Positions 45,275-62,898 of a DNA stretch of 64,000 nucleotides are shown piece after piece. The stretch is from Hyphomicrobiaceae bacterium (lineage in GTDB: Bacteria > Pseudomonadota > Alphaproteobacteria > Rhizobiales > Hyphomicrobiaceae): positions 1-64,000 of the forward strand of contig JANXWC010000185.1 of assembly GCA_025351355.1 (NCBI GenBank). The letters are read 5' to 3'. Below the pieces are notes generated by a model. That model was given only the letters and a program-made list of their open reading frames with translations, ran no database searches and was not told where the DNA came from. Each line of letters starts with the position of its first letter. Position 1 is the stretch's first letter. The position numbers were made by a program, and so were the translations under genes.

Positions 45275-47389
45275 ATGCTCATCGACGTAAAATCCCTCGC
45301 CTCGCTTTTCGCGCCGGAGAGTGTAGCTGTGATCGGCGCATCGACCGAGCCGCTCAAAATTGGTGGCCGCCCCATCAGTTTCTTGAAAGACAATGGCTAT
45401 TCCGGCCGCATTCTCCCCATCAATCCGAAGGCGCGCGATATCCAGGGCCTGCCGGTGTTTCCGAGCATCGGCGACGTCGACGGCACCGTCGATCTCGCAA
45501 TCTGTGCCGTTCCAGGCGAACACGCGATGGCTACTCTGCAAGCCTGCGCGCGCAAGGGTGTCAGGTCCGTCGTCATGTTTTCGGCAGGCTTCGCCGAAGT
45601 GAGCGAAGAGGGGCGCGTTGCGCAAGACAAAATGGCCGCGTTTGCCCGAGATGCCGGCATTCGTCTCATGGGGCCCAACTGCATGGGAGTTGCGAACATC
45701 CGCAGCGGCATGATCGCCAGCTTCCACCCCGCGTTCATGTTTCCACAACCGAAAGGCGGTCACATCGGTCTGGTCAGCCAGAGCGGTGCGTTCGGCGGCA
45801 TCTGCATGCAAATGGCGCGCGAGCGGGGCGTCGGGTTCGCCTACATGGTCACCACCGGCAATGAAGCAGACGTGCAGGCCGCTGACGCATTGGCCTATCT
45901 CGCCGGCGATCCGGAAGTTGCCGTCATCATGCTTTATCTAGAAGGTTGCCGCGATGGCGCCCGCATGATCGAAGCGCTGGAAATCGCCCGGCGCGCCAAA
46001 AAACCGGTCGTAGCCATCAAACTCGGCCGCACAGATGCGGGCGCAAAGGCTGCTCAGTCTCACACGGCCGCCTTGGCCGGTGCAGATGCCGTCTTTGATG
46101 CCGTCTTCAAGCAATATGGCGTGTATCGGGCCTACAACATCGAAGAATTCTTCGACGTGGGTGTCGCGACTGCCATCGGCTGCATGCCGAAAAACAATAA
46201 GGTTGGCTTGGTGACCGTCTCGGGTGGCGTTGGTGTTTTGATGGCCGATGATGCCGCCGCGCGCGGCCTTGATGTCGCCGAGTTACCCGCCTCCGCACAA
46301 GCCAAATTCAAGAAGTTGGTGCCTTTTGCCGGAGTCATAAATCCCTTGGATGTCACCGGCCAGATCATGAATGATCGTTCGCTGCTTGAGCAAGCGGTCA
46401 ACCTCGTGCTCTCTGAATCCGACTACGGCAGCCTCGTCTGCTTCCAGGGTGCATCCTCTGCCGATCCGCAAATTGCCGCCGACCAACTGGCCGTGTGGGG
46501 TCGCGTGAAAGAGGCCTTTCCTGATCGTCTGATCAGTGTTTCTGGACTGCTCAGTCCCGATTTCATCAAGGCAGTCGAAGCTGCTGGAATGCCCGCCTCT
46601 CGCGATCCCACACACAGTCTGCGCGCCATTGCCGCCCTGCATGGTTTCGCCACGACGTTTGCCAGGCCTTTCACCCGCCCCGAAGTCGCCGCTGCCAGCA
46701 ATGATCTCCCATCTGGCAACCTCAACGAAGTCGACGCCATGGCCGTGCTCGCGCGCGCCGGTCTTGACGTCGTCGAGGAACGCCTTGCCACAACCGCCGA
46801 TCAGGCCGTCGTTGCAGCAGAAGCCATCGGCTATCCCGTGGTCATGAAGGTTGTTTCCGCCGACATCCTGCACAAGTCTGATGTCGGTGGCGTTAAGTTG
46901 AAGCTGGTCGATGCCGCAGCAGTTCGCATTGCCTTCGAGGATATCCAGCGCACAGTCAAAAAGGCCATGGCGAAAGCCAAGATCGAAGGTTGCTTGGTTG
47001 CTCCGATGATCAGTGGTCGCGGCGTCGAAACCATCATTGGCGTTACCAACGATCCCGTCTTCGGGCCCGTCGTCATGTTCGGCCTCGGCGGGATCATGGT
47101 GGAAGCCCTACACGATGTGGCATTCCGCGTTGCCCCATTTGACGAAGCCGAGGCGCATCGCATGATCCGCGAGATCCGGACCTACAAAGTGCTGCAGGGC
47201 CTGCGCGGCGCACCTGCGTCAGACGTGAATGCATTGGCCAAGGCGCTCGCATCCGTCTCCTGCTTCGCAGTCGCCCACGGCGCCCAGCTTGTATCGATGG
47301 AAGCCAATCCGTTCCTGGTCCGCCCGGTGGGCGAGGGTGCCATCGCTCTCGACGCCGTGGTGACCACCAGGGAAGTCTGCACGCGGTAG
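45275..47389 (+). CDS. Acyl-CoA synthetase, NDP-forming (acetate-CoA ligase family)
   Basis: A 704-residue fusion of the alpha part (CoA-binding [17 protein letters not shown] near 18, [11 protein letters not shown] near 132, and the [19 protein letters not shown] histidine region) with a C-terminal ATP-grasp beta part ([29 protein letters not shown] near 510). Such enzymes make acyl-CoA plus ADP and phosphate from an acid. It follows hydroxylation and Baeyer-Villiger genes and could activate acids produced from them; this is inference. Length and order are normal for fused members. Confidence 0.92.
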   Translation: [704 protein letters not shown]

Positions 47390-47450
47390 GAACCCACTGG
47401 CATTCAGATCCGTTCCAACTTGATATGAACCGGAGTTGGGCGGTGCGCAA

Positions 47451-47702
47451 ATGGCAGTCATTCTTGTCAAACCTGTCGAAACTTTCACGGTCGCCGGCGT
47501 AAAAGCGTCGATTATGGGGATTGATCCACTCAGCCGTCAGTTGTTTCAAGGTAGTATGGATATTGGATCGTCTTTGACGCCCCCGCCAACGTTGGCCGCC
47601 TGGTCCATCGACGGGACGCACGCAGACGGCACCAATCATCTCGACGCAAACTCTCCGGAATTCACAGATTTGGTAGAAACTGCCCGCAAGCTTGGTCTTT
47701 GA
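47451..47702 (+). CDS. Hypothetical 83-residue protein
   Basis: ATG at 47451 opens MAVILVKPVETFTVAGVKAS and a further 63 residues, mildly hydrophobic at the start and acidic near the end (DANSPEFTDLVETARKL). No family recognised and no strong ribosome site, so the gene is only possible. Confidence 0.4.
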   Translation: MAVILVKPVETFTVAGVKASIMGIDPLSRQLFQGSMDIGSSLTPPPTLAAWSIDGTHADGTNHLDANSPEFTDLVETARKLGL

Positions 47703-47722
47703 AGTTACAACTTTAGCATTGC

Positions 47723-47747
47723 GGAACAAAGCTGTCTCTTGCCGGTT
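47723..47747 (+). promoter_or_regulatory. Possible EcfG-type promoter (one mismatch)
   Basis: GGAAC (47723-47727), 16 nt, then GGTT (47744-47747) differs from the EcfG consensus CGTT at one base. It precedes the 25-codon membrane peptide gene by 39 nt. Confidence 0.4.
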
Positions 47748-47786
47748 TATCAGTCATCAGCAGGTGTTTTTCCAGGAGTTATCGTT

Positions 47787-47864
47787 ATGAGATACATCGG
47801 CCTTTGGCTGCTCGGCGTGCCCGTCATCGGAATTGTAGGTTTAAAGGTCTTCGGGCTGATTTAA
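47787..47864 (+). CDS. 25-residue single-helix membrane peptide
   Basis: An AGGAG ribosome site (47774-47778) lies 8 nt before ATG 47787, which opens 25 codons ending TAA. The peptide starts MRYIGLWLLGVPVIGIVGLK and is a single hydrophobic helix with one Arg at the front. The very good ribosome site and helix character argue that it is a real small protein. It lies beside the stress-controlled trehalose operon, with a near-EcfG promoter in front. Confidence 0.65.
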   Translation: MRYIGLWLLGVPVIGIVGLKVFGLI

Positions 47865-47907
47865 ATGTTATCGAAATGCGCAATAAAACTGGTTGTGGGA
47901 AAATTTT

Positions 47908-48651
47908 TCACGGCAAAATAACGTGTGATTGTCTGGAAAAATCCCGCAACCAGCTGCGAACATGTGCCGGTCCATTAAAGTATGAGACTTCCTTCGCGAA
48001 AAATTCACCGGCAACTGTCAGACCATATCCACCCATTTCGGTTGCCGTGTGAACAGCACTCAAGTCCGGCGAATCGTCACCGATCATAATCGGTATTCGT
48101 TCCGCAAAGAGAGGCAAGCGCATCAAGTCCCGAACGGCCCGACCCTTCGATGTGCCACGCGGTATAATCTCAAATACCATTCTGCCCTGACCGAGTTCCA
48201 TATCCTGGTGGTGGGCTGAGATAAGCCGCCGGAGGTTGTCTTCAAGCCACGCTCGCATTTCAGGCGCTTGCCGATAATGGACCGAGACCGCAGCGTACTT
48301 GGTCTCTATGACAATTCCTGGGGAGGCATCTTTAAGGTTCTGGAGAGCGCGCAATAGTGAATGTGAGAAGGTGGGTTCACCCGTTTCGATTGTACCATTC
48401 TCAGCGCGACGCATCTCGACACCATGGACGCCAGCTGCAATCGGGTGGATGGGCGACAGGATGCGATCGATTTCTTCGATCCGTCGACCCGAGACAATTG
48501 CCAGCGCACCATTCAATCGCACCATTAGATCCTGAAGCGTCGAAACGAGGCCGTCCGCAGCAAAGACATCGTTTGGTGTTGGTTGAATGTCTACCAGCGT
48601 ACCGTCGACGTCGAGAAACAGCGCGCAACTGTCTGCGCAAATTTCGTGCAT
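47908..48651 (-). CDS. otsB: Trehalose-6-phosphate phosphatase
   Basis: A 247-residue HAD phosphatase that completes trehalose synthesis. The nucleophile Asp is in ALFLDVDGTLVDIQPTP (motif I, near residue 13), LAIVSGRR is motif II, and TSKGRAV with IMIGDDSPDLSAV supplies motifs III and IV. Start ATG 48651 has GGGGAA upstream. Last gene of the five-gene trehalose/glucan operon, 20 nt after the debranching enzyme gene. Confidence 0.95.
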   Translation of the reverse strand: MHEICADSCALFLDVDGTLVDIQPTPNDVFAADGLVSTLQDLMVRLNGALAIVSGRRIEEIDRILSPIHPIAAGVHGVEMRRAENGTIETGEPTFSHSLLRALQNLKDASPGIVIETKYAAVSVHYRQAPEMRAWLEDNLRRLISAHHQDMELGQGRMVFEIIPRGTSKGRAVRDLMRLPLFAERIPIMIGDDSPDLSAVHTATEMGGYGLTVAGEFFAKEVSYFNGPAHVRSWLRDFSRQSHVILP

Positions 48652-48671
48652 TTTCCCCGCCCCCCGACTTA

Positions 48672-50876
48672 TCATTGCGAATTGTCGTGCGTGTGTTCCA
48701 GGACGTCATTTGCCGAGTGCAACACTAGCGTCAGGCGTACCGGCCCTTCTGCCCGGATCACGCGCAGCGATACTGCGCTACCATCTCGGCGAACCGAAAA
48801 ATCGACATTTGCTTCACGCAATTTCAAATCACGAATTGTTATTTCATCGATTCCTGGTGGAAGAATCGGATTGCACAATCGTATCTCATGTGAATCTGGA
48901 ACAAACTCCAATCCAAGCATGGCTTGGATGACCATAAACAAAGATCCACTGGCCCAGGCCTGCGGAGCGCATGCCACGGGATAGAGTGTCGGGCCGCGCC
49001 CGCGCTTGACGTTGAAGCCGCAAAAAAGCTCCGGCAACCGCCGTTGATCCATCCAACCTGCGGCTTTACAGAGGCCGTTGAAGATAGGAACAATTGCCGA
49101 CTTATGACCATATCGCGCCAAGCCTGCGGCAATTATTGCGTTGTCGTGCGGCCAGACTGAGCCATTGTGGTAGGACATGGGATTGTAGCGCGCCTCCCCA
49201 CGCGCCAGCGTGCGAATACCCCATCCGGAATTGAAGTCACTTCGGCTGAGAGTTTTGACGAGAATGTCGACTTTTTCTGCTGATGCGATGCCGCAATAAA
49301 GTGCGTGGTAGGCATTGCTGCTTCGCACTGCGCATGGCGATTTGTTGCCGTCCAGTGCTAAGGCATAGCAGCCGATTTCATCTAACCAGAACGCTCTTTG
49401 AAAGCGTTGGCGGAGGTGATCGGATTCGGCGCGAAGTTGAGCAGATCGCGCCTCATGACCAAGCTTTCGGGCACAGTTACTCGCGTGCAATTTCGCGGCG
49501 TAGATATAAGCTTGCACTTCCACCAGTGCGATCGCGCCTGAAGCCAATTTGCCGTCCGCATGAAAAATGGAATCAAATGAATCCTTCCAACCCTGATTAG
49601 AAAGTCCCGTTTCCACCGCTCGCTTATATTCGACAAAGCCATCGTCATCTAAATCACCATAAGTGTCGATCCATTTCAGAGCGCGCTCCACATTTCCCCA
49701 AAGTTCGCTCAGCAGGTCGAGATCGCCTGTGCGTTCGACGTATTGGCCCATCAGCATGACAAACAATGGGGTCGAGTCGACGCTGCCATAGTAGAGACCG
49801 AACGGCACTTCATTAAGCGAGGCCATCTCTCCGCCCCGCATTTCGTGGAGTATTTTTCCGGCTTGGGAGTCTTTCGATGCATCTGTCTGGGTCGCCTGGA
49901 GCGCAGCCAGGCGTCGCAAGACGCCCCGCGCGATGTTGGGATCAAGCCACAGCATCTGCATGGCGGCGATCAGGCCATCTCGGCCGAAAGTCGTTGAATA
50001 CCATGGAATTCCCGCATATGGATACGGACCCTGCGCCGTTGTCGACACCAGCATATAAAAATCGGCCATCGAGCGGCATAGTGTTTCGTTAACTGTAGCG
50101 CTCGAGGTTTCGATCGATGCGACATCGCGCGTGGCGCGCTTGTGATCCCTGTCCGCAGCCCGAAGTGCCTTGAAGAAGGGTGCGGTCGATGCGGTCGCGG
50201 GTCCTCGGCTGGACGCCGAGATAAAAATATTTGTCCGTTCGTGCGGCCGCAAACGAACTGCATAGACTGCGCGCGCATCGCTCAGCTGTGCAGGTGCGGG
50301 TTCAAAAAATATCGATGTATCGCGCCTAATCCCGTCTAGACCGTCATAGGACAAGATAACGTTGCCCGTCCCGAGAATACGTTTGCGCGAATGCCCTCTT
50401 TTCTTTCTGCGAGATCCACGGACCTCAAAAATGTCAGCAAAATCATTTTCGAAGTCGATGGACAACGCAAGCTCATTGCGCTTTTCACTGTGGTTTTCCA
50501 GGGCTAGTCGGACATACATTACCCCATCGCGCAGAAAAATGGCGCGGGAGATATGGATGGTGTCCTTAGGGAGTACAATTGTTTCATTTTCTGTGATGTC
50601 TGGGTTCGTCAAATCGACGTACATATGAAGATTGTCGTCGCGGACGTTGGAACCAAGAAGAAGGGGCTGCATCCCGTTTATGAGAACTTCAAAGCGCGAT
50701 AGGAAACGTGTGTCTGAATCGAAGAAGCCGTCCGGACCACCGCCGACCGCGCCGATATCACCGTGGCTATCGAAAACAGCAAATGCGTCATTATGTTTGA
50801 GCGTTTTTCGTTTGCGCGATGTCTGACCCATTCCCTGAATGTAGAATGGCTGCTCTGGATGATCATGGTTGGGCAT
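48672..50876 (-). CDS. Amylo-alpha-1,6-glucosidase / glycogen debranching-type glycosidase
   Basis: About 734 residues. The N-terminal part (KHNDAFAVFDSHGDIGAVGG, FFDSDTRFLSRFEVLING) is the beta-rich debranching N-domain; the C-terminal part is an alpha/alpha toroid with YAGIPWYSTTFGRDGLIAAMQML, FGLYYGSVDSTPLFVMLMGQYV, and GSVWPHDNAIIAAGLARYG. Such proteins trim alpha-1,6 branches or act on sucrose-like or glucosylated compatible solutes. The start is chosen at ATG 50876, where AGGAAAAG precedes the codon; ATGs at 50936 and 50969 would overlap the preceding gene. Confidence 0.85.
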   Translation of the reverse strand: MPNHDHPEQPFYIQGMGQTSRKRKTLKHNDAFAVFDSHGDIGAVGGGPDGFFDSDTRFLSRFEVLINGMQPLLLGSNVRDDNLHMYVDLTNPDITENETIVLPKDTIHISRAIFLRDGVMYVRLALENHSEKRNELALSIDFENDFADIFEVRGSRRKKRGHSRKRILGTGNVILSYDGLDGIRRDTSIFFEPAPAQLSDARAVYAVRLRPHERTNIFISASSRGPATASTAPFFKALRAADRDHKRATRDVASIETSSATVNETLCRSMADFYMLVSTTAQGPYPYAGIPWYSTTFGRDGLIAAMQMLWLDPNIARGVLRRLAALQATQTDASKDSQAGKILHEMRGGEMASLNEVPFGLYYGSVDSTPLFVMLMGQYVERTGDLDLLSELWGNVERALKWIDTYGDLDDDGFVEYKRAVETGLSNQGWKDSFDSIFHADGKLASGAIALVEVQAYIYAAKLHASNCARKLGHEARSAQLRAESDHLRQRFQRAFWLDEIGCYALALDGNKSPCAVRSSNAYHALYCGIASAEKVDILVKTLSRSDFNSGWGIRTLARGEARYNPMSYHNGSVWPHDNAIIAAGLARYGHKSAIVPIFNGLCKAAGWMDQRRLPELFCGFNVKRGRGPTLYPVACAPQAWASGSLFMVIQAMLGLEFVPDSHEIRLCNPILPPGIDEITIRDLKLREANVDFSVRRDGSAVSLRVIRAEGPVRLTLVLHSANDVLEHTHDNSQ

Positions 50877-50919
50877 CTTGAGACTTTTCCTAGATCCTTC
50901 GATCTTGAAGGAAAGGTGA

Positions 50920-52047
50920 TCAGAGGGCGACTTCATGTGCTGCGGGACCGGCTCTAAGCGGGGGTTCATGGTCCTGGGCGTGTTTGATTAATTGCAATGT
51001 TCCGTTTTGCGCTTCGGCAGCAGATAAAGACTTATAAATAGCCACGTATTCTTGGGCCATACGGCGGACCGAGAAGCGTTCTTCGAATGTGCGCCGAACA
51101 GTTGCCCTATCTAGGGCTAGAACTCGCGGTAAAGCTGCAACAGCCTCGGTCACGCTGTGCACAATGGCACCGGTAATATTTTCGTCTATCACCTCTGCAA
51201 CCGATCCCTTGTTGAAAGCGAGTATTGGAGTGCCGCAAGCCATTGCCTCTATCATTACAAGACCGAATGGTTCTGGCCAATCAATTGGAAACAAAAGGGC
51301 CAAAGCATCTCCAAGAAACTGCTCCTTAGTTGCTTCATTAATTTCACCAATGAACTCGACTCCTGGTTGTTCCAGAAGAGGTTTTATCTCTCGAAAATAA
51401 GCTTCGTCAGCGCGGTCAATTTTCGCAGCGATTTTGATCGGTATGCCCGCCCTCAAAGCAATTTCAATGGCGCGATCGACCCGTTTCTCAGGCGAAATGC
51501 GACCTAGAAAAGCCAGGTAATTTCGGCCTGCATTTGTATGCGTAGGCTTTTGCAGTAGGGAGGGCAGGCCGTGCAAAACGGTCCCAGCGAAATTGGACCG
51601 CTTTATGGGGGTTCGCTGGGATTCAGAAATAGAAACGAGGGGCATCAGCGGGAAGGCGTTATAGAGAAAAGGTAAATCCGGCAGGTCTTGGCGACCATGC
51701 AAGGTCGTGAGCGTCGGAACTTCTTCGCGATTGAAAATGGGAAAATGAAATTGATCGATATGGAAATGTAGTACATCGAAGCTTCCCGCCAGCGCCATTT
51801 GCTTTACCTGGTCCAGCATACCCATATAATAGGGAATGGGATCTCGTACGTTAGGATTAAGCCGAAGAGCTTGCTCGCAGCATGGGAACAGGGTTGCATT
51901 GGTGATTGAGTCGCCGCTTGCAAAAAGTGTTACGTCGTGCCCCTGCGAGACTAGTTCTTCAGTCAGGTAACTGACAATGCGTTCAGTGCCGCCATACAGT
52001 TGAGGGGGGACGCTTTCCATGAGAGGAGCTATTTGCGCAATTTTCAT
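50920..52047 (-). CDS. GT4 family glycosyltransferase
   Basis: A 375-residue GT-B glycosyltransferase. The acceptor-domain loop is PLMESVPPQLYGGTERIVSYL near residue 9, the C-terminal sugar-nucleotide domain holds LAFLGRISPEKRVDRAIEIA near 190 and the E-x7-E motif around EPFGLVMIEAMACGTPILAF near 270. It could use UDP- or ADP-glucose to make a glucoside or glucan within the trehalose operon; the product is not known. Confidence 0.88.
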   Translation of the reverse strand: MKIAQIAPLMESVPPQLYGGTERIVSYLTEELVSQGHDVTLFASGDSITNATLFPCCEQALRLNPNVRDPIPYYMGMLDQVKQMALAGSFDVLHFHIDQFHFPIFNREEVPTLTTLHGRQDLPDLPFLYNAFPLMPLVSISESQRTPIKRSNFAGTVLHGLPSLLQKPTHTNAGRNYLAFLGRISPEKRVDRAIEIALRAGIPIKIAAKIDRADEAYFREIKPLLEQPGVEFIGEINEATKEQFLGDALALLFPIDWPEPFGLVMIEAMACGTPILAFNKGSVAEVIDENITGAIVHSVTEAVAALPRVLALDRATVRRTFEERFSVRRMAQEYVAIYKSLSAAEAQNGTLQLIKHAQDHEPPLRAGPAAHEVAL

Positions 52048-52084
52048 CTTAACCGTCCAAAACCAGTTTAAAACAAGCCTGCAT

Positions 52085-53557
52085 TCACCAAGTGCGGTTC
52101 AGCTGACTAGTTGCTGCAAGTCCCCTGGTTGACGACGAGCTAGGAGCTTTTGCTTTGGGAGCGGGGGCACGTCGCCGGTTCTTCCCAGTTCTTTCGGACC
52201 CGTTTTCGGCCTGAGCGCCCGTTGTGGCTAGCGCCGTAAGGAAGTTCTGCGCCCAGTTAGCCGCAGTGTGTGTTTCAATGTTTTTCATCAAGGATGCGTG
52301 GCGTTGCTGCCTTTCTGGCAGCGACATTTTTATTGCCGAATAAATACTTGTCGACACTTCTTCAACGTTATACGGATTGACAATCAGAGCATCCGATAAT
52401 TGCTCAGCAGCGCCAGCGAAACGAGATAAGATGAGCACTCCGGGATTGGCTGGATCTTGGGCCGCAACATATTCTTTGGCGACCAAATTCATCCCGTCGC
52501 GGAGAGGTGTTACCAAACCTACTGCCGACGACCGATACACGTCGACCAATCTCTCGCGTGCTGTAGTGCGATTGATATAGTGTATCGGTACCCACTCTAA
52601 ATCGCCGTACCGACCATTGATAGATCCGGCGAGTGATTCGAGTTCTTTTCGGATATCATTATATGCCTCAACGCTCTCCCGCGTCGGTGCAGCGATTTGC
52701 GTAAGTATGGCGCGGTTGCAATATTCGGGATGTGAGGACAGAAAATGATCGAAGGCGCGGAACTTCTGCGGTAGTCCTTTTGTGTAATCCAATCTGTCGA
52801 CCCCGATTATTCGCGCAATATGTCCCGAATCGACATAATTTTTAATGGTATTTGGCGATAAGCTCGGTTTAAAGTAACTTGGGTCAATCCCGACGGGAGC
52901 GCTAACGATCGAACATTCTCTATGGCCAATTTTCATACGGCCATCCGGCAACATGTGCGCACCTGCACCGTGGAGCAGAAAATCGATCATGTTGGCGACG
53001 TCGGAAGTTGCCTGCAGGCCAATCAGGTCATAAGCAGCGAAATCTTGCGCTAATTGCAGATATTCAGGAACGGCCATAAATGATTGGGATGGTGGAAATG
53101 GTATGTGCAGAAAAAAGCCGATCTTATTACTTACACCCAATGCCCGAAGTTCTTGGGCTATTGTGATGAAGTGATAATCGTGTACCCAAATTATATCGCC
53201 TGGCGTCAAAAGAGAGACCAGTGCGGATGCGAAACGGCGGTTAACTGCCGCGTATGCATCGAAATATCCTTCTTCAAACCTTGCTAAATCAACTCGATTG
53301 TGGAAAACGGGCCAAAGAACCGAATTTGAATAACCCAGGTAATAGTTTAGATACTCACTTTCCGTCAACGGTAACGTTGCAACAGACAAATGCCGGTTGA
53401 CTTCGAATGATCGTTCATTGTCTATGTTTCCTGACCAACCAAACCAAAGCCCGGCATGCTCATTCAAATAGTCGGAAATTGCCACAGTGACACCGCCGGC
53501 GTGCGTTGACTTATTGGGGTCGGCGACCCTATTCGATACGAAGACGACACGATTCAT
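52085..53557 (-). CDS. otsA: Trehalose-6-phosphate synthase
   Basis: A 490-residue GT20 enzyme that couples UDP-glucose and glucose-6-phosphate. Signature residues are visible in HAGGVTVAISDYL (UDP-glucose loop), GLWFGWSGN, WVHDYHFITIA and RIIGVDRLDYTKGLPQKFRAF (Arg/Lys phosphate site). The last 40 or so residues are a basic, Pro/Ala-rich extension not needed for the fold. It lies between GH15 and GT4 genes on the minus strand with short gaps. Confidence 0.95.
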   Translation of the reverse strand: MNRVVFVSNRVADPNKSTHAGGVTVAISDYLNEHAGLWFGWSGNIDNERSFEVNRHLSVATLPLTESEYLNYYLGYSNSVLWPVFHNRVDLARFEEGYFDAYAAVNRRFASALVSLLTPGDIIWVHDYHFITIAQELRALGVSNKIGFFLHIPFPPSQSFMAVPEYLQLAQDFAAYDLIGLQATSDVANMIDFLLHGAGAHMLPDGRMKIGHRECSIVSAPVGIDPSYFKPSLSPNTIKNYVDSGHIARIIGVDRLDYTKGLPQKFRAFDHFLSSHPEYCNRAILTQIAAPTRESVEAYNDIRKELESLAGSINGRYGDLEWVPIHYINRTTARERLVDVYRSSAVGLVTPLRDGMNLVAKEYVAAQDPANPGVLILSRFAGAAEQLSDALIVNPYNVEEVSTSIYSAIKMSLPERQQRHASLMKNIETHTAANWAQNFLTALATTGAQAENGSERTGKNRRRAPAPKAKAPSSSSTRGLAATSQLNRTW

Positions 53558-53606
53558 TGTAATATTTCTCTTGTCATCGCTACGCTATGTCAAACGGTTG
53601 GAAGTA

Positions 53607-55397
53607 TTAGTTAGTTCCGCTCTGGTCAGACCACGCTTCCGACCATGAGCGGGAAAGTTCAACGGCGGTATTGATAATCCCTGCCATGGAATAGGTTTGT
53701 GGAATGTTGCCCCAAAGCTGGCGGGTGCCGGGATGGATGTCTTCTGAAAGTATACCGAAGCTATTTCTATGACCTAACAGCTCAACAAACATCGCCCGGG
53801 CTTCGTCACGGCGGCCAATGCGAGATAATGCATCAATGTACCAGAATTGGCAGGCTAGAAAAGCTACTTCCGGTGAACCGAAATCATCGGGGGCCGTATA
53901 GCGCATCATAAATCCATTTCGGCTTAATTCCTTGCCAATCACGTCGACGGTGCGAATATATCTTGGGTCGTCGGGCGTGATTAGACCCAACTGCGGAAGA
54001 AGCAAGCAACTGGCGTCGAGATCATCGCTGTCGAACGCGGCTACGAAGGCTCCCCGCCGGGGGTTCCAAGCGCGAGCCAATATTTCGGATTTAATGCGGG
54101 CAGCGTGATTGGCCCAATAGCGGAGGCGTGCCTCTAGTCCAAGGAGCTGGGCGATCCGCGCCAGTCGATCGCATGCTACCCAGCACATTGTTGCCGAATA
54201 GGTATGAACGCGGCTGCGACCTCGATATTCCCACAGGCCGGCGTCGGGTTCGGCGACCAGACGCTTGGCGTGTTCTCCCAGAACTTCGAGCCGATGGAAC
54301 AGTCCTGCGTCACCGGGATGCGGCAATCGCTGGTCAGCAAACATTTGCGCGGCACCCAGAATGATGCTGCCGTAAGTATCGTGTTGGGCTTGCTCGGCTG
54401 CTTGATTGCCAATTCGGACCGGGCCGGTGCCTGCAAATCCTTTTAAGTTTGGCGCAATTTTTTCGATGAGTGGTTCGTCATGAACGATACCGTAGACAGG
54501 TTTGAGAGACGCGGCGTGATCCGTCGCGATATTTGTTATATATCCCAGATACGACTCCATCGTTTGGGTCGCTCCTAGGTTATTCAGGGCTTTAATGACG
54601 AAATATGCGTCGCGTGGCCAGCAGTAGCGATAGTCCCACGTTCTTTCTGTACCCGGCGCCTCGGGAATCGACGTCGTGAGAGCGGCAACGATTGCGCCAG
54701 TTTCATCGAAACTGCAAAGTTTCAGTGAAATGGCCGCCCGAATTACCTCGGTCTGCCACTCAAAGGGAATCCCGAGAGATCGGGTCCATTCTGTCCAATA
54801 CCGAATCGTACGATCCAAAAATTCTTTGGACAAACGATCGACAGACGATTCAATGGGTTCGTCCGCCCCAAAGATTAGTGTCATATTGCGAAGCAAGGCG
54901 AATTCGGATTCCTGCGCGACGTAAGACAGGGGTGCATCTGTCGTAACTCGAAGTGCTGCTGATCCGCCGGTGTATCTGATGTGGCTCGACCCGAGCGACA
55001 AAACTGCGCAATTTTCACCGTAGTTAAAAGTAGGGCGAATGCGTATCGTGATTCGGGGAGTGCCGCTTGCGCATTCGATCCTTCTGATCAGCTGAGGCGG
55101 ATGATGAATGCGTTCAAATTGGGCAAAGCGCGGCATAAAGTCAACAATGCGCACACTATTTTCGGCGTCGTCGGTCAATATCGTCTCAAGTACTGCCGTA
55201 TTGCGCACATAACGGGCCACCGCAGATTTTTTGTTTTTCAGGACAACATCACAAAATCCTTTTTCTTCGCCCGCTGTCAGAAGGTTGCAAAACACGGGAT
55301 CTGAGTCGAATCTTGGAAAACAGAACCATTTTATACGTCCGGCATTGTCAGCAAGCGCCGCAATGCGACCATTGCCGATCGGCGCAAGATTCAACAT
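53607..55397 (-). CDS. Glycoside hydrolase family 15 (glucoamylase/trehalase-like)
   Basis: A 596-residue GH15 protein. The N-terminal beta domain starts IGNGRIAALADNAGRIKWFCFPRFDSDPVF; the (alpha/alpha)6 catalytic domain carries ERTWDYRYCWPRDAYF, the first catalytic Glu in GLWEYRGR, and the second in GILSEDIHPGTRQLWGNIPQTYS. The family includes glucoamylases, glucodextranases and trehalases, so it may hydrolyse trehalose or alpha-glucan. The ATG at 55397 (or GTG 55400) lies about 40 nt after an EcfG promoter; first gene of the operon. Confidence 0.9.
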   Translation of the reverse strand: MLNLAPIGNGRIAALADNAGRIKWFCFPRFDSDPVFCNLLTAGEEKGFCDVVLKNKKSAVARYVRNTAVLETILTDDAENSVRIVDFMPRFAQFERIHHPPQLIRRIECASGTPRITIRIRPTFNYGENCAVLSLGSSHIRYTGGSAALRVTTDAPLSYVAQESEFALLRNMTLIFGADEPIESSVDRLSKEFLDRTIRYWTEWTRSLGIPFEWQTEVIRAAISLKLCSFDETGAIVAALTTSIPEAPGTERTWDYRYCWPRDAYFVIKALNNLGATQTMESYLGYITNIATDHAASLKPVYGIVHDEPLIEKIAPNLKGFAGTGPVRIGNQAAEQAQHDTYGSIILGAAQMFADQRLPHPGDAGLFHRLEVLGEHAKRLVAEPDAGLWEYRGRSRVHTYSATMCWVACDRLARIAQLLGLEARLRYWANHAARIKSEILARAWNPRRGAFVAAFDSDDLDASCLLLPQLGLITPDDPRYIRTVDVIGKELSRNGFMMRYTAPDDFGSPEVAFLACQFWYIDALSRIGRRDEARAMFVELLGHRNSFGILSEDIHPGTRQLWGNIPQTYSMAGIINTAVELSRSWSEAWSDQSGTN

Positions 55398-55442
55398 CAC
55401 GATTTTCCCGCGTTGCAGGTTGCTCAGAAAATGAACCTGTAA

Positions 55443-55467
55443 AACGCCTAATGTGTTTGCAAGTTCC
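55443..55467 (-). promoter_or_regulatory. EcfG promoter of the GH15-otsA operon
   Basis: On the minus strand GGAAC-N16-CGTT is exact (plus-strand AACG 55443-55446 and GTTCC 55463-55467). Transcription would start about 8 nt beyond the -10, giving a leader of about 40 nt before GH15. Confidence 0.85.
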
Positions 55468-55511
55468 GGCTGTTATTTGCACTTATGTCGGGCGGCAGTC
55501 GAATTTTGGGG

Positions 55512-56084
55512 TCAGCCGGGAGTCTTGACTGGAATTTTCGCAGCTAGATCGCTCTGAGTTCTGCGTGGCTCTTTCATGACTTGTTCGCCGGCAGGTCCGG
55601 CTGCCATCAGTTCCGCCAAATGCGCGCGTGCGCGATTGACCCGGCTTTTGACAGTTCCGACGGCACAGCCGGAAATCGTTGCTGCTTCTTCGTAGGAGTA
55701 GCCTTCAGCTCCGACTAGGAGCAGCGCCTCGCGTTGATCGGGTGACAGAAAAGTAAGGGCCTTGCGGAAATCGGAAAGATCGACATGACCATTTTGTTCA
55801 GGCAGCGAAACAAGCTGCGCGGCGGCCTGGCCGTCGACATCCTGAGATTCGCGTCGACGTTTACGTATATCTGAAAAGTAAGTATTGCGAAGGATCGTAA
55901 AAAGCCATGCTTTCAAATTGGTTCCAACTTCAAACTTGTCGCGATTGGCCCAAGCTTTTAAGAGAGTGTCTTGAACTAGGTCGTTGGCTCGGTGGTGGTC
56001 ACCAGTCAGTGATATCGCGAATGCGCGAAGATTAGGAATCGTAGCAACTAGGGCGTCGCGAAGACTTGCGCCAGCTTGAACCAC
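55512..56084 (-). CDS. ecfG: General stress sigma factor EcfG
   Basis: A 190-residue ECF sigma factor of the EcfG group. Region 2 is AFAISLTGDHHRANDLVQDTLLKAWANRDKFEVGTNLKAWLFTILRNTYFSDIRKRRRE; region 4 contains SPDQREALLLVGAEGYSYEEAATISGCAVGTVKSRVNRAR. It directs RNA polymerase to GGAAC-N16-CGTT promoters and is held by NepR without stress. The start is taken at the GTG at 56084 because AAGGAG lies 8 nt before it inside the end of nepR; an ATG at 56102 would place this site inside the gene. It shares one base with the nepR stop (TAGTG). Confidence 0.93.
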   Translation of the reverse strand: MVQAGASLRDALVATIPNLRAFAISLTGDHHRANDLVQDTLLKAWANRDKFEVGTNLKAWLFTILRNTYFSDIRKRRRESQDVDGQAAAQLVSLPEQNGHVDLSDFRKALTFLSPDQREALLLVGAEGYSYEEAATISGCAVGTVKSRVNRARAHLAELMAAGPAGEQVMKEPRRTQSDLAAKIPVKTPG

Positions 56085-56317
56085 TATTTTATCTCCTTGC
56101 ATTCCAGCTCGTGCAACAATTTCAATAGCTGGTCGGGGATCGGTTCGCTGACTATCTGTCCATAAATTGTTCTCAATTGATGGCCGATCAACTTTTGGGC
56201 AGCCTCGTCAATTTTTATGTCGGGAGCCTCAACTGATTCCGGCTTTTTGCGAACATCGGGTGTCAAGTCACCGGGCGATGGGATGAGCACGCTTTCGTCC
56301 TTGTTATTGATCGTCAT
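56084..56317 (-). CDS. nepR: Anti-sigma factor NepR
   Basis: A 77-residue NepR protein that binds EcfG until phosphorylated PhyR takes it away. The conserved helix pair is IGHQLRTIYGQIVSEPIPDQLLKLLHELE (about 44-72), preceded by a flexible acidic N-terminus. The ATG at 56317 is preferred over in-frame upstream codons because it begins the typical short arm. It is encoded directly before ecfG with an EcfG promoter 60-90 nt upstream, giving autoregulation. Confidence 0.93.
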   Translation of the reverse strand: MTINNKDESVLIPSPGDLTPDVRKKPESVEAPDIKIDEAAQKLIGHQLRTIYGQIVSEPIPDQLLKLLHELECKEIK

Positions 56318-56380
56318 GAAGTACCCCGATGTAGCCTGCCGATGAGCGCACGATCCGATCGGTTGAGCCATTGTGCTCCC

Positions 56381-56405
56381 AACGCGATACTTTGGAAAAC
56401 GTTCC
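56381..56405 (-). promoter_or_regulatory. EcfG promoter of nepR-ecfG
   Basis: Exact GGAAC-N16-CGTT on the minus strand (plus-strand AACG 56381-56384, GTTCC 56401-56405). It supports positive autoregulation of the anti-sigma/sigma pair. A weaker plus-strand GGAAC-N16-GATT at 56414 toward phyR has two -10 mismatches and is not called. Confidence 0.85.
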
Positions 56406-56560
56406 GCAATTCTGGAACCTTTCGGTCTTATGAAGATTGTGGTACCGATAGTTCACTGGTGTCGCGAAAATTTCGGGATACCGGTCCAACTCTTGATGTG
56501 AATCAGATAAGATTACCATCGGGAAGATAACAGTACCAGCTTCATGAGGGCATTCGGCTG

Positions 56561-57400
56561 ATGACAAGCTTGGCTCAGACGATCCTGCCGCACCTCCCCT
56601 ATTTGCGCCGGTTTGCTCGAAGTTTGACCGGCAAACAGGCGAGCGGTGATGCGTACGTGGCATCAGTGCTTGAGACGTTGATAGCCGATTCAAGTGCCTT
56701 TCCCGTAAAAATGTCACCCCGATCAGCTCTGTATCGCGTGTTCCTTAAATCGTGGAATGCGGTTTCCATCAACGCTACGACCGAGCCCGTCGTTGGATTT
56801 GACGATGTCAGCATGCGCGCCAACGAAGCCGATAGCCGGTTGGAGTCAATAACGCCGCTGCCGCGACAGGCGTTCTTGTTGATCTCTATGGAAGGGTTTA
56901 CTCCCGACGAGGCGGCGGCAATTCTTGACGTGACTGGCGCGCAGTTTGAATCTTTGCTGGATGCGGCGGCGCGTGAGATTGCTGAGCAAGTGGCGACTAG
57001 TGTGCTTATCATAGAGGATGAGCCACTTATTGCTCTTGATCTTGAGGGTGTTGTCAAGAGTATCGGCCATACAGTGTTGCAGATAGCGCGGACTAAGCGG
57101 GAGGCAGTGGAGGCATTCAAATCCCAACATCCGGGTTTGGTGCTTGCAGATATTCAACTCGCTGATGGAAGCTCCGGCTTGGATGCCGTCAATGAGATAC
57201 TCGGTGAGGCTGAGGTACCCGTGATATTTATTACCGCTTATCCCGAACAAGTTCTCACCGGCTTGCGACCGGAACCAACATTTCTAATTCCGAAGCCTTT
57301 CAAGCATGAAACGGTAAAAGCCGTCATTAGCCAGGCATTATTCTTTAATATGAGGGCTAAAAACAAGAACAAAGCTCATCAACCTAAAAAAATTACCTAG
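56561..57400 (+). CDS. phyR: Response regulator PhyR (sigma-factor mimic)
   Basis: A 279-residue PhyR. Residues 1-140 are a degenerate EcfG-like domain (LPYLRRFARSLTGKQASGDAYVAS, then region-4-like LLISMEGFTPDEAAAILDVT) that binds NepR once released. Residues about 145-262 are a receiver: acidic IEDEP pair, phospho-acceptor D197 in LVLADIQLADGSSG, and K in LIPKPF. The last 15 or so residues are very lysine-rich. It is divergent from nepR-ecfG as usual. No adjacent HWE/HisKA2 sensor kinase gene was seen. Confidence 0.95.
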   Translation: MTSLAQTILPHLPYLRRFARSLTGKQASGDAYVASVLETLIADSSAFPVKMSPRSALYRVFLKSWNAVSINATTEPVVGFDDVSMRANEADSRLESITPLPRQAFLLISMEGFTPDEAAAILDVTGAQFESLLDAAAREIAEQVATSVLIIEDEPLIALDLEGVVKSIGHTVLQIARTKREAVEAFKSQHPGLVLADIQLADGSSGLDAVNEILGEAEVPVIFITAYPEQVLTGLRPEPTFLIPKPFKHETVKAVISQALFFNMRAKNKNKAHQPKKIT

Positions 57401-57509
57401 GAGCGGTCACTTAAGTCTTACGAGTTTCAGATCCCCGGTTCGGCGTCAGGTATCTGGTGTGGACAATTCTGAGATATCGAAATAATTTCGCGAGAGCTTA
57501 TATTTCTTT

Positions 57510-57534
57510 GGAACACAAATTTTTCATGAACGTT
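57510..57534 (+). promoter_or_regulatory. EcfG promoter of the DUF1328 gene
   Basis: Exact GGAAC (57510-57514), 16 nt, CGTT (57531-57534), about 35 nt before the ATG at 57568. Confidence 0.85.
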
Positions 57535-57567
57535 TCCTGTAGCGCAGTCGTTCTTCGGGAGATGAAA

Positions 57568-57741
57568 ATGGGTAATTTACTTCACTATGCGGTTGTTTTT
57601 CTTGTTGTGGCAGTTGTCGCAGCGTTCTTTGGCTTTGGCGGTGTAGCTGGAACGGCGATGGATGGAGCTCGAATTCTTTTCTGGGTCGCAATTGTGCTGT
57701 TCGTAGTCTCCCTTATCGCAAGCCTTATACGTCGTGCCTGA
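57568..57741 (+). CDS. DUF1328 family small membrane protein
   Basis: A 57-residue protein with two helices (HYAVVFLVVAVVAAFFGFGGVAG and ARILFWVAIVLFVVSLIASLI), the DUF1328 pattern including FGFGGVAGTA. CGGGAG lies 7 nt before ATG 57568; an ATG two codons earlier is too close to it. Family members are stress-induced in alphaproteobacteria, agreeing with the EcfG promoter directly upstream. Biochemical role unknown. Confidence 0.9.
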   Translation: MGNLLHYAVVFLVVAVVAAFFGFGGVAGTAMDGARILFWVAIVLFVVSLIASLIRRA

Positions 57742-57774
57742 TAAAATACGGGTGCTGCATATTCAAAAATTGAG

Positions 57775-57805
57775 AGCTGACCGATTCCTGCCGGTCAGCT
57801 TTTTT
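57775..57805. terminator. Bidirectional rho-independent terminator
   Basis: AGCTGACCG (57775-57783) and CGGTCAGCT (57792-57800) form a perfect 9-bp stem with an 8-nt loop, followed by a T-run. It lies between the convergent DUF1328 and AI-2E permease genes. Confidence 0.85.
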
Positions 57806-57818
57806 ATACCCTGGCGAA

Positions 57819-59717
57819 CTAAGCAGATCCAATTGCCGGATCGTTGCGCTGCGTTTTCTCAAGTGTGTTTTTCGAACTATCTAAATTTAATTGAGTAACG
57901 CTGATAGTTTCTCTTACTGCCGATGACATATCGCCCACTGTTCTGTCTACGCGATCGTCTGCGTTGTTGATATTATGTGCACCGTCGCCCCAAAATCCTC
58001 CGAAAATCAATAGACTGGGCGCCATGCGTCGCAATCTCCGTACGACGTAGCGGATTTGAGACGGTGCGGCTTGTGATGCCATCGATGAAACCCAGACGAG
58101 TTTCACCCCATTGAGATTAAGGCGGTTGATGTCGTTTAGCCGGGTATCGGTGAACACGCGGGCGCGTATTCCATGATGATTTAATGCATCGCTCAATATA
58201 GCGGCAATCAATGTATCCAACGGACGCACGCCTATGCAAAGCACCGCGGCATCATCAATCGCAAATTCTGGCTTCAGGTCTGCGACATTCAATATTGGTA
58301 TATCCTCGTTCGGACCATTCTCGTTTTGGCGCGAGTCGTTTCGCGTCAGAGCGAAATCATTCAGATCTTCAACTAGGGCTAATACGGCCTCTCTGAGCTC
58401 CAGCAACCGCTCCGAGCTCAGAGCGCCGCGGGCGGCGTCGTTAGCAGCCAATTGCAAACCTGGAATGGCTATGTGGTCGTAATAATCGACCAACGGAGCT
58501 GTCTGCAGATATTGTTCCGCTTGCTCTGCCGCTTCTGCGGACGCGCCCGCAAGCATGCGATGGTAAAAAATTTCTTCTGGTGCCAAAACCGGTTCGTCAC
58601 CGAGTATGACATCGAGAAATGCCAACCCCTCGATGTGGCGCCCGAGCACGACCAAGCACATCGTGGTTGGTGTCGATATGAGAAGTCCGATAGGCCCCCA
58701 TAACGTGGTCCACAAGATGGCGGATACGACGATCGCCAAGGGTGACAGTCCGGTAGAATGGCTTTGGACCCAAGGTTCCAAGAAGTTTCCTAAAGTAGCT
58801 TCGGCGACTGCAAAAAGCGCGGCAGTTTTAATCGCCATTGTCCAGCCATCGTCGACGGAAGCGGCGAGGAGTATTGGAAATACCGCGGAAAAGATAGCGC
58901 CGATATACGGGACAAATCGCATGAGGCCTGCAAAGACCCCCCAGAGTACTGGGCTGGGAACGCCGAACATCCAAAGACCGAGCGCAATTGTGACGCCAAA
59001 GGCGGTGTTAAGGGCGGTTTGCACCAGAAGTAATTTACTTAGCCGCGACGCCGCGTCTGTCAATGCCGAAGTGGTCCTCTGAATATCATGCGTCCCGACC
59101 AAGCGAATGACGCGGTCCCGAATGTCGTTGCGCTGAATAAGAATGAATACGACAAGAATCAAGACGATCGCGGTGGTTGTGATTGGCATGAGAAGGGCGG
59201 TGATGATGCGCTGGTAGATATCGAGAGGGCGATCCGGGGGTTGTGCTATTTCGACCTGGATGGGGCGTTGCGGTTGGGCCTCAACTGGCTTCGATCCAGC
59301 CTGAGATGACGCACTTTGCCGCTCGAGTTCCTCGCCTAAGCCCCTAAGCGTGGCAGTTGCTTTATCTATCACGCTTGTTTGCGTGGAGCCGACCCGGAAA
59401 GCTTGGAGTTTCTTGCGCAACGTCATTTCATATTTCGGTAGGTCATTGCCAAGGTCGACAACCTGCCGGGCCAACGCAAAGCCGATCAACGCGACGATGC
59501 CCATCGACGAGGCCACAACGATAGCAACTGCCATTCCCCTGGGAATTGAAGCGCGCCTGAGCATTTCGACGAGAGGATTGAGCACAAAGCTTAGAAGGAC
59601 CGCTAAAAATACAGGAACAAGTATTTCTTTGCCAAAGTGCATTGCACTCAAAAGGGCCGCCACCACGATTGCGCCAGCAGCAGCGCGAGGCAAAGTGTCT
59701 TGAACGTCCAAACGCAC
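57819..59717 (-). CDS. AI-2E family transporter (PerM-like) with C-terminal extension
   Basis: A 632-residue protein. Residues 1-370 form the AI-2E/PerM membrane part: paired N-terminal helices, a soluble coiled segment, then LILVVFILIQRNDIRDRVIRL, VPSPVLWGVFAGLMRFVPYIGA and ILWTTLWGPIGLLISTPTTMCLVVLGRH. Residues about 385-632 are extra; the last part (VLCIGVRPLDTLIAAILSDALNHHG, LVWVSSM, LLIFGGFW) resembles a Rossmann-like, cobalamin-binding-type fold but lacks an obvious DxHxxG. Family members export small molecules or ions. The start is a GTG with AGAGG upstream and an EcfG promoter 36 nt before it. Confidence 0.82.
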   Translation of the reverse strand: MRLDVQDTLPRAAAGAIVVAALLSAMHFGKEILVPVFLAVLLSFVLNPLVEMLRRASIPRGMAVAIVVASSMGIVALIGFALARQVVDLGNDLPKYEMTLRKKLQAFRVGSTQTSVIDKATATLRGLGEELERQSASSQAGSKPVEAQPQRPIQVEIAQPPDRPLDIYQRIITALLMPITTTAIVLILVVFILIQRNDIRDRVIRLVGTHDIQRTTSALTDAASRLSKLLLVQTALNTAFGVTIALGLWMFGVPSPVLWGVFAGLMRFVPYIGAIFSAVFPILLAASVDDGWTMAIKTAALFAVAEATLGNFLEPWVQSHSTGLSPLAIVVSAILWTTLWGPIGLLISTPTTMCLVVLGRHIEGLAFLDVILGDEPVLAPEEIFYHRMLAGASAEAAEQAEQYLQTAPLVDYYDHIAIPGLQLAANDAARGALSSERLLELREAVLALVEDLNDFALTRNDSRQNENGPNEDIPILNVADLKPEFAIDDAAVLCIGVRPLDTLIAAILSDALNHHGIRARVFTDTRLNDINRLNLNGVKLVWVSSMASQAAPSQIRYVVRRLRRMAPSLLIFGGFWGDGAHNINNADDRVDRTVGDMSSAVRETISVTQLNLDSSKNTLEKTQRNDPAIGSA

Positions 59718-59752
59718 GTCAACCTCTGCCTTGGTGGGAGCTAACGCCTATC

Positions 59753-59777
59753 AACGCATGCTTCAATCTTTGGTTCC
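59753..59777 (-). promoter_or_regulatory. EcfG promoter of the AI-2E-family gene
   Basis: Exact minus-strand GGAAC-N16-CGTT (plus-strand AACG 59753-59756, GTTCC 59773-59777). It abuts, by 6 nt, an oppositely directed EcfG promoter. Confidence 0.85.
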
Positions 59778-59783
59778 TGGAAG

Positions 59784-59808
59784 GGAACTGTTCCGTGTCA
59801 AGCGCGTT
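59784..59808 (+). promoter_or_regulatory. EcfG promoter of the membrane GTPase gene
   Basis: Exact GGAAC (59784-59788), 16 nt, CGTT (59805-59808) on the plus strand. The two sigma factor sites at this locus are back to back, so both genes should be induced together. Confidence 0.85.
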
Positions 59809-59875
59809 AAATGCATGGCGTAGATAAAGTCGCCAAAGGGTAGCGCATTTTGTTTCGAGCGAGGTGCAAGGCTCG

Positions 59876-61375
59876 ATGAACCATTCCGTGCGTTCTGGCA
59901 AACTTCGTTACGCAGCTATTCTAGCTGGTCTTTTTCTGCCGAGCCTGCTTCTTCTACCGCTGGGTAGCATTTGGCTTTGGCAGAATGGTTACCTGGTGCA
60001 CTGGGCGGCTGCGACGCTTATCTGTGTTGCCGTAACTTCGTTGCTACAGCGATGGCTATTGAAGTCGGTCTCACCGCAGCAAACGGCTCTCGAGGTTGCT
60101 GCTAGTTGGACACCGGCTGAGGAGGCGGCGTGGAAGGCGGTGTGTGAAGTTGCTGAGAGAGCCGATGCAGCTCAATTGAGTTCGCGTGACGCGTGCATAG
60201 AGCTTGGCCTAAGGACTGTTCGCGCGGTTGCGCATTCCATGCATCCGGAAGTGAACAATCCTCTTTGGCAGTTCACGGTTCCGGAGGCGTTTGCGTTACT
60301 CGAACAAGTCAGCGGTCGCTTGCGGGGTTATTCCGCTGAAAATGTTCCGTTCGGTGATCAATTGACTGTAGCGCAAATTCTCAGTGTCTATCGTTGGCGA
60401 GGTGCATTGGATGTTGTGGAGCGGATATACGACGTTTGGCGCTTAGCAAGGCTTGCCAATCCCGTTACAGCAGCGGCTAACGAACTACGCGAACGGTTCT
60501 CCAAACAACTCCTTGTGCTCGGACGTGAGCACATTGCCGACCGCCTGATGGAAGCATACGTAAAAGAGGTGGGGCGTGCGGCGATAGACCTTTACAGCGG
60601 TCGCCTCCGAGTTTCGGCTCATCCGCGAAAAGCTGTCGACAATGTCGTATCCAACGAGGTCGAGCCCGTTCGGATCATTGTTGTTGGACGACGCGGCGCC
60701 GGTAAGTCATCGATCGTAAGAGCACTGCGCGGCGTATTGAAGTTCGACGAGCCTATCGATAAATCATCGAAGAATGCTGTTGAATACAAAGTCGTTCAGC
60801 GCAATGGGAACAGCTGCGTGGTTGTTGATTCGCCTGCGCTGATGGGAACAGCCGGCATGCCGGCAACCGTGATTAAAAAAACTTTGGATTGCGATATGGT
60901 CGTGCTCGCCGTCTCGGCTCAGCATGCGGAACGAGGGATTGAGCGCGACGCGATCAAGGCATTCCAGGAGCTATATGGGGCTTTGCCGCGCAGACGTCGC
61001 CCTCCCATCGTAATTGCACTTACGCACCTCGATCTCGTTGACGACAATCCACCTAAACTTGCCGCAGCGAACATGGCGAGTATTCCCGAAGCGATGGTTG
61101 CTGTGGAAGACGCGGGTTCTGTGCGCAGATTAATCGATATTGTCGCAGCTGATTTGAAGTTTGATGATGAATTGATCGTGCCCGTAACTAGTGTCGTTGG
61201 TGAAGGGTCTAATGTTGACGGCCTGTGGTTGGCACTCCTAGCGCATTGGGAGCAGGCCAAGCATGCGAAATCTGCTCGAAGTGTTTCCAAGCGCGCGGGA
61301 TCTTGGAGTTTGACCAAACTCTGGTCTCAGGCACGTCGCGGTAGCGGCGTGGTAGGAAAGGCGCTTTGGCGGTAG
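59876..61375 (+). CDS. Membrane-anchored GTPase of unknown function
   Basis: A 499-residue protein. Two hydrophobic helices at the N-terminus (about 13-36 and 42-58) are followed by a helical region and a P-loop GTPase domain: G1 is G271-x4-G-K277-S278 (GRRGAGKSS), G3 reads VVDSPALMG, and G4 is ALTHLDLVD (THxD in place of NKxD), seen in dynamin-like and YcjX-type GTPases. A basic C-terminal tail follows. It may act at the inner membrane in stress. The ATG at 59876 is preferred to the GTG at 59864. EcfG control is shown by the upstream promoter. Confidence 0.75.
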   Translation: MNHSVRSGKLRYAAILAGLFLPSLLLLPLGSIWLWQNGYLVHWAAATLICVAVTSLLQRWLLKSVSPQQTALEVAASWTPAEEAAWKAVCEVAERADAAQLSSRDACIELGLRTVRAVAHSMHPEVNNPLWQFTVPEAFALLEQVSGRLRGYSAENVPFGDQLTVAQILSVYRWRGALDVVERIYDVWRLARLANPVTAAANELRERFSKQLLVLGREHIADRLMEAYVKEVGRAAIDLYSGRLRVSAHPRKAVDNVVSNEVEPVRIIVVGRRGAGKSSIVRALRGVLKFDEPIDKSSKNAVEYKVVQRNGNSCVVVDSPALMGTAGMPATVIKKTLDCDMVVLAVSAQHAERGIERDAIKAFQELYGALPRRRRPPIVIALTHLDLVDDNPPKLAAANMASIPEAMVAVEDAGSVRRLIDIVAADLKFDDELIVPVTSVVGEGSNVDGLWLALLAHWEQAKHAKSARSVSKRAGSWSLTKLWSQARRGSGVVGKALWR

Positions 61376-61470
61376 TGGTTTATCGCGATCATGTGTATTT
61401 TGCGTTGTGACATAGCAACTATTCATCGTCGCCTGCGTTTAAGTCAGAGGCGAAAAAATGGGAGCGTGGC

Positions 61471-61743
61471 ATGGCTCAAGGCAATCCATATTCAACCGAG
61501 AGTACCAATTCAGTGACTGATCTGCAGGATCGAATGGCTGACCAAATCCATCGGATTTCCGACAAAGTTGAGGTGGCAGCAAAAAACGTTGCTGACCGCG
61601 GTCGAGACGCTGGTGAAAACGTCCAGCAAGTGGCGGGAAATTTTAAATCCGCGGTTGATAGTTCGCTTCGTGATCAACCGATGGCGACTTTGGCAATGGC
61701 CGCAGCAGTCGGGTTTATTCTGGGCGCACTGTGGAGATCGTAA
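61471..61743 (+). CDS. DUF883 (ElaB/YqjD-like) membrane-anchored protein
   Basis: A 90-residue protein with an acidic amphipathic coiled helix (residues about 15-65) and a C-terminal tail anchor ending LRDQPMATLAMAAAVGFILGALWRS, the typical DUF883 end. ElaB/YqjD proteins are stress-induced inner-membrane proteins that can bind ribosomes in E. coli. GGGAG lies 7 nt before the ATG. It follows the GTPase by 95 nt and may share its message; no exact EcfG site of its own was seen. Confidence 0.88.
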   Translation: MAQGNPYSTESTNSVTDLQDRMADQIHRISDKVEVAAKNVADRGRDAGENVQQVAGNFKSAVDSSLRDQPMATLAMAAAVGFILGALWRS

Positions 61744-61824
61744 AACGTTCAACCGTGCGAAACAGTGCACTGAATGCAGGTGGCTACAGATGCCGCAGGC
61801 CATCGTAACTCAGCGAGTGTGGTA

Positions 61825-62316: not shown

Positions 62317-62401
62317 CTTGAGATCTGGTATAATCTTGCTTGATATAGTCTTGGGCGGCGTTTGAATAATCGCAGTATTTCGTGGGACCTTGGATCGGCA
62401 A

Positions 62402-62893: not shown

Positions 62894-62898
62894 GGCAG

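Follow-up and report, generated by a model that had tools for sequence, protein, structure and literature searches.

The locus described here raises the question of whether the GGAAC-type boxes grouped around a nepR-ecfG/phyR gene set are true EcfG promoters, and which genes they would control. The first-pass annotation of the window (the whole stretch of 64,000 nt that was analysed) had proposed a compact EcfG regulon with five perfect GGAAC-N16-CGTT promoters and one additional imperfect site. Our analysis indicates that this is very probably a canonical chromosomal NepR-EcfG/PhyR general stress response (GSR) locus of a Hyphomicrobiales bacterium, whose EcfG boxes would drive both local and distant genes. 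Among relatives that carry a name, a Hyphomicrobiaceae MAG is the nearest. The promoter cluster confirms that a poorly studied lineage has the textbook architecture of the GSR. Such an architecture is of an ordinary, well-known kind, and the interest lies in the target of the weakest site.

Table 1. Genes and promoter boxes of the GSR locus, with their positions in the window.
Feature	Position	Strand	Remarks
Micropeptide promoter GGAAC-N16-GGTT	47723..47747	+	39 nt before ATG 47787
25-aa single-span membrane micropeptide	47787..47864	+	MRYIGLWLLGVPVIGIVGLKVFGLI; unannotated ORF, SD-like AGGAG
otsB, trehalose-phosphatase	47908..48675	-	Pfam PF02358
Glycogen-debranching-type glucosidase (GDE_N_bis / MGH1-like)	48672..50969	-	domain match
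GT4 glycosyltransferase	50920..52047	-	domain match
otsA, trehalose-6-phosphate synthase	52085..53557	-	PF00982; TIGR02400 510 bits, below cut-off 565
otsA promoter GGAAC-N17-CGTT	53593..53618	-	not in the first-pass list
GH15 family hydrolase	53607..55400	-	PF00723, TREH_N
EcfG box before GH15	55443-55467	-	perfect N16
ecfG, sigma factor	55512..56102	-	sigma r2 + r4; best NCBIfam PRK12547, above cut-off
nepR, anti-sigma factor	56084..56317	-	PF18557 above cut-off; ATG 56317
EcfG box before nepR-ecfG	56381-56405	-	perfect N16
Degenerate phyR promoter GGAAC-N16-GATT	56414..56438	+	perfect -35, -10 = GATT
phyR, anti-anti-sigma response regulator	56561..57400	+	NF006623 351 bits, cut-off 240
EcfG box before DUF1328	57510-57534	+	perfect N16
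DUF1328 small membrane protein	57562..57741	+	PF07043; NCBIfam PRK13682; ATG 57562
AI-2E family transporter	57819..59717	-	PF01594; PDB 7nb6 TqsA
EcfG box before AI-2E	59753-59777	-	perfect N16
EcfG box before GTPase	59784-59808	+	perfect N16
Membrane GTPase (MMR_HSR1-like)	59864..61375	+	start GTG 59864 or ATG 59876-59879 region
DUF883 promoter GCAAC-N16-CGTT	61415..61439	+	not in the first-pass list
DUF883-type small protein	61471..61743	+	just under Pfam cut-off

Regulators and promoter boxes

The ecfG gene encodes a protein in which regions 2 and 4 of EcfG-type ECF sigma factors are both present, and it is 84% identical in the nearest congener (G002). It lies in an operon with the gene of the anti-sigma factor NepR, the two reading frames sharing 19 nt; this NepR scores under the cut-off of the Caulobacter-type NCBIfam model. 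The phyR gene is divergent from nepR-ecfG, and its product combines a sigma-like domain with a receiver and retains Asp197 (phospho-Asp), Thr225, and Lys245 as well as the TAYPE and PKPF motifs. The alphaproteobacterial partner switch and the recognition of a GGAAC-type motif by EcfG are established for the family. By analogy, NepR would keep EcfG inactive in this organism, phosphorylated PhyR would remove NepR from EcfG, and free EcfG would bring RNA polymerase to GGAAC-N16/17-CGTT promoters. Ten HWE-type kinase matches were found in the genome. A 4-kb contig (L306, C127 of G000) carries an HWE-type kinase together with two more divergent perfect EcfG boxes.

The motif reported for EcfG1 of R. 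etli is GGAAC-N16-CGTT (PMC3892343). Reading both strands, we recovered all five perfect copies claimed by the first-pass annotation, and its statement that they face gene starts within about 100 nt also holds: they are located 27-68 nt upstream of the likely starts (CGTT-to-start distances of 42 nt for GH15, 63 nt for nepR, 27 nt for DUF1328, 35 nt for AI-2E, and 55-68 nt for the GTPase). The clustering is indeed far above chance, since at the own-genome rate of 47 GGAAC-N16-CGTT in 5.25 Mb the probability of finding at least five boxes in 4,366 bp is ~7e-10, or ~9e-7 once all such spans are allowed for. In shuffled sequence, 0.48 perfect boxes are expected per 64 kb, and five were reached in 0 of 100 shuffles. 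The list of sites was nevertheless incomplete, because it missed the N17 box before otsA and the GCAAC box before DUF883.

The conservation of the boxes was analysed in a sample of ~97 GSR loci of relatives, scoring the boxes upstream of homologues by spacer. Upstream of nepR, N16/17 boxes are present in 24 of 45 cases, with at most one at any other spacer, and upstream of DUF1328 (up to 120 nt) in 41 of 54, whereas the remaining spacers between 10 and 23 gave none. In the footprint comparison with the congener G002, nepR, DUF1328, and otsA each retain the box with a changed spacer. The assignment of nepR-ecfG and DUF1328 to EcfG, made gene by gene in the first-pass annotation, is thus well supported by spacer-specific conservation, and the nepR-ecfG box supports autoregulation. 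A canonical box, which is usual but not obligatory in GSR loci, was not found before phyR. The -10 element at the same place is AGTT in G002 and CGTT in a more distant locus (L086), and the phyR upstream regions of relatives contain a perfect box in 48 of 79 cases and a one-mismatch box in 16 more; when scored by spacer, N16/17 boxes precede 60 of 95 phyR homologues and are near zero at other spacers. Since the -10 has decayed to GATT here, the positive feedback on phyR may be weak.

Local targets and extent of the regulon

The local targets of EcfG would comprise nepR-ecfG, otsA, probably the GH15-led cluster, DUF1328, AI-2E/GTPase, DUF883, and the 25-aa micropeptide. In B. diazoefficiens, EcfG targets include otsA and otsB (PMC8092242). 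The otsA box of G002 is found at the same place as GGAAC-N16-CGTT with a diverged spacer. In contrast, no equivalent of the GH15 box exists in G002, and otsA has its own box both there and here, which makes GH15 the weakest of the target calls; the box probably drives the GH15-led cluster, but it could still be a chance match. The GH15 protein best matches the models of the archaeal trehalase TreH1, below their cut-off, and therefore a trehalase beside otsA/otsB is possible.

The assignment of the AI-2E and GTPase genes is supported mainly by their perfect boxes and the clustering. Boxes were found upstream of only 4 of 16 AI-2E homologues and of 4 of 9 GTPase homologues (~40% identical in the family), and in three of the latter four the box is probably that of a DUF1328 gene lying in between. 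The -35 elements of the two boxes are placed back to back, 6 bp apart, so that two polymerases could hardly use both simultaneously. Among 398 genomes of the order, 70 contain two perfect divergent boxes; the reversed control gave 0. Their gaps are most commonly 8-10 bp, with a second group near 29, a preference that we take as a lead only because related genomes were counted together. The AI-2E transporter has a C-terminal extension of ~270 aa without a Pfam match. As to DUF883, 10 of 14 homologues have an N16/17 box at about the same place, with 0 at other spacers, and in Sphingopyxis GCAAC is among the two -35 sequences most often seen at GSR promoters (PMC7083833). Pieces of the row formed by AI-2E, DUF1328, GTPase, DUF883, and a hypothetical protein are located near the regulators in six relatives (L106, L110, L125, L136, L178, and L182); in the window the order is altered, but the pieces retain boxes.

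A GGAAC-N17-CGTT sequence at 47389-47414 (+) overlaps the stop of a CoA-ligase gene, 36 nt before an 83-aa ORF (47451-47702, +). We do not claim this ORF as an EcfG target, since no homologue was found in the relatives' loci compared, and the box could still be a chance match.

When the whole genome was scanned for the N16 motif, as the first-pass annotation had proposed, the counts were uninformative and position was discriminating. The exact motif occurs 47 times with N16, 31 with N17, 51 with N13, and ~36 per other spacer (485 matches for spacers 10-22 summed), and we rejected the perfect-motif count as proof because control spacers are equally frequent. Identical copies of GGAACGGCTTCGGTGCATCGTT are found on contigs C48, C71, C209, C218, C254, and C261 of the own genome, several near contig ends; they are probably a repeated mobile element that inflates the N13 count. 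Using a simple codon-bias gene caller as positional filter, 24 of the 42 N16 matches outside the window are intergenic versus 6 of 30 for N13 (Fisher 0.0015), and 15 of 42 versus 2 of 30 are both intergenic and upstream of a gene (Fisher 0.0036). The regulon would therefore be genome-wide, with ~15 more genes carrying EcfG boxes elsewhere, and the description as compact does not stand. The genes behind the outside boxes include those for OpgC, MdoG/OpgG, an alternative oxidase, GCS2, a PRC-barrel protein, and DUF883, and a CsbD gene lies behind an N17 box; in our reading, OpgC, OpgG, the alternative oxidase, and the like are gene types expected in a stress regulon. Some of the 15 boxes are surely still chance matches, and a transketolase-like gene among the targets is doubtful.

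Another ECF sigma factor with an AAC-type -35 might share or own some of these promoters, given the presence of further ECF-like proteins (24-35% identical) in the genome. We consider this unlikely, since across genera the boxes accompany the ecfG/nepR/phyR locus and the genome has one clear EcfG. No second close EcfG and no second full-length PhyR was found in it. The GC content drops from ~0.60 to 0.49-0.54 over 46000-64000, a region that contains the GSR block and then purH. This drop, and the failure to find phyR in three of the four congeners, would fit a horizontally acquired GSR island (47-64 kb), but the low GC runs on into purH, and G002 has the same gene order at 80% identity. Moreover, the G004 contig ends in the otsA cluster exactly where the GSR genes would come next, so the absence of phyR from congeners may be an assembly gap. 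We thus regard an island as improbable and as not supported, given that the assemblies of congeners are interrupted at the locus. The failure of the N16 count to exceed the N13 control would favour boxes that match a loose 9-base motif by chance. This explanation is very improbable, and for the cluster as a whole it can be dismissed on the clustering probability, the positional filter, and the spacer-specific conservation. A canonical GSR locus with genome-wide EcfG boxes remains the preferred reading.

A conserved micropeptide behind the weakest site

The site at 47723 carries one mismatch, as annotated. No target had been assigned to it, and the likely one is a conserved 25-aa micropeptide with a single predicted membrane span and a central Pro. 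GGTT is used as a GSR -10 in Sphingopyxis (PMC7083833). Another 12 loci centred on phyR (L090, L106, L125, L135, L136, L142, L150, L167, L168, L174, L178, and L182) contain small ORFs with the LWxxGxP motif, at no more than ~10 kb from phyR. These membrane peptides of 24-28 aa, with homologues from many families, have a nearly invariant LW..G.P, and a GGAG-type ribosome site precedes nearly all of them. Boxes (at most one mismatch, N16/17, within 150 nt) are present in 11 of 13 GSR loci and in 0-2 at other spacers, whereas 5.7% of the small ORFs taken as controls from these loci have one (binomial ~1e-12, kinship uncorrected).

In a profile search of 399 genomes of the phylum, 64 gave matches. 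Among 22 inspected loci of the same order, ten of which belong to one genus, the box is perfect in 13 and has one mismatch in 7 (20/22 together). The box is typically found 30-45 nt before the ATG (range 26-100 nt among homologues). None of the four copies inspected outside the class has an EcfG-type box. A second copy in the genome (contig C261) is also without a box, and the ORF is absent from the corresponding place in G002. Within the ten-locus genus, pN (0.046) is far below pS (0.43; pN/pS ~0.11), showing that the micropeptide is under purifying selection. With a box at promoter distance that is conserved among its homologues, the micropeptide fits as a member of the EcfG regulon.

The mismatch could instead mean that the site is fortuitous and the ORF untranslated, or the region might encode an EcfG-dependent ncRNA, as R. 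etli has one, ReC64, of 88 nt near phyR (PMC3892343). We give these explanations a low probability: the homologous ORFs with LW..G.P, their SD sites, and the pN/pS ratio argue for a translated product, boxes are far more frequent (11/13 and 20/22) than the ~6% background, and no RNA structure was detected at the micropeptide (z 0.45), for which reason a structural RNA role was rejected.

Pfam and NCBIfam gave no model for the micropeptide apart from one weak match (E 0.02, below cut-off), its core strings were not found printed in the open literature searched, and tblastn against plasmids and phages gave no match, although masking may affect hydrophobic queries this short. Judged against Pfam, NCBIfam, and the open literature, only the micropeptide looks new here. 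We lean towards the view, with some reserve, that the family is a widespread alphaproteobacterial GSR effector, EcfG-promoted and often encoded within 10 kb of phyR. Under stress it would insert in the inner membrane and tune a membrane complex or the membrane state; alternatively, it may be a toxin-like membrane peptide. These genes are too short for ordinary ORF length cut-offs, and yet they lie behind EcfG-type promoters across many families. As an effector, the micropeptide would add a simple, testable, and new candidate output to a stress response for which few effectors are known.

Comparison with known systems

AcrZ and MgtS are stress-induced single-span membrane micropeptides of bacteria, and the peptide at 47787 resembles them in being very short, with one predicted membrane span and a stress-type promoter. 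The same likeness holds for YohP of E. coli, a further stress-induced micropeptide of this kind (PMC12719787). The peptide at 47787 differs from the three in its own LWxxGxP motif, its EcfG-type promoter, and the lack of matches to family models; the likeness is one of type and not of demonstrated kinship. By description it also resembles ReC64 of R. etli as a very short EcfG-promoted transcript near phyR, but ReC64 is reported as non-coding and 88 nt long (PMC3892343).

As a whole, the locus is like the EcfG1 system of R. etli and the EcfG systems of S. granuli and B. diazoefficiens, sharing the same three regulators, the overlapping nepR-ecfG operon, the divergent phyR, GGAAC-N16-CGTT promoters, autoregulation, and otsA/otsB targets. 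Unlike in those systems, the -10 of phyR has decayed to GATT, an AI-2E/GTPase/DUF883 block adjoins the regulators, and a 25-aa micropeptide appears as a putative target.
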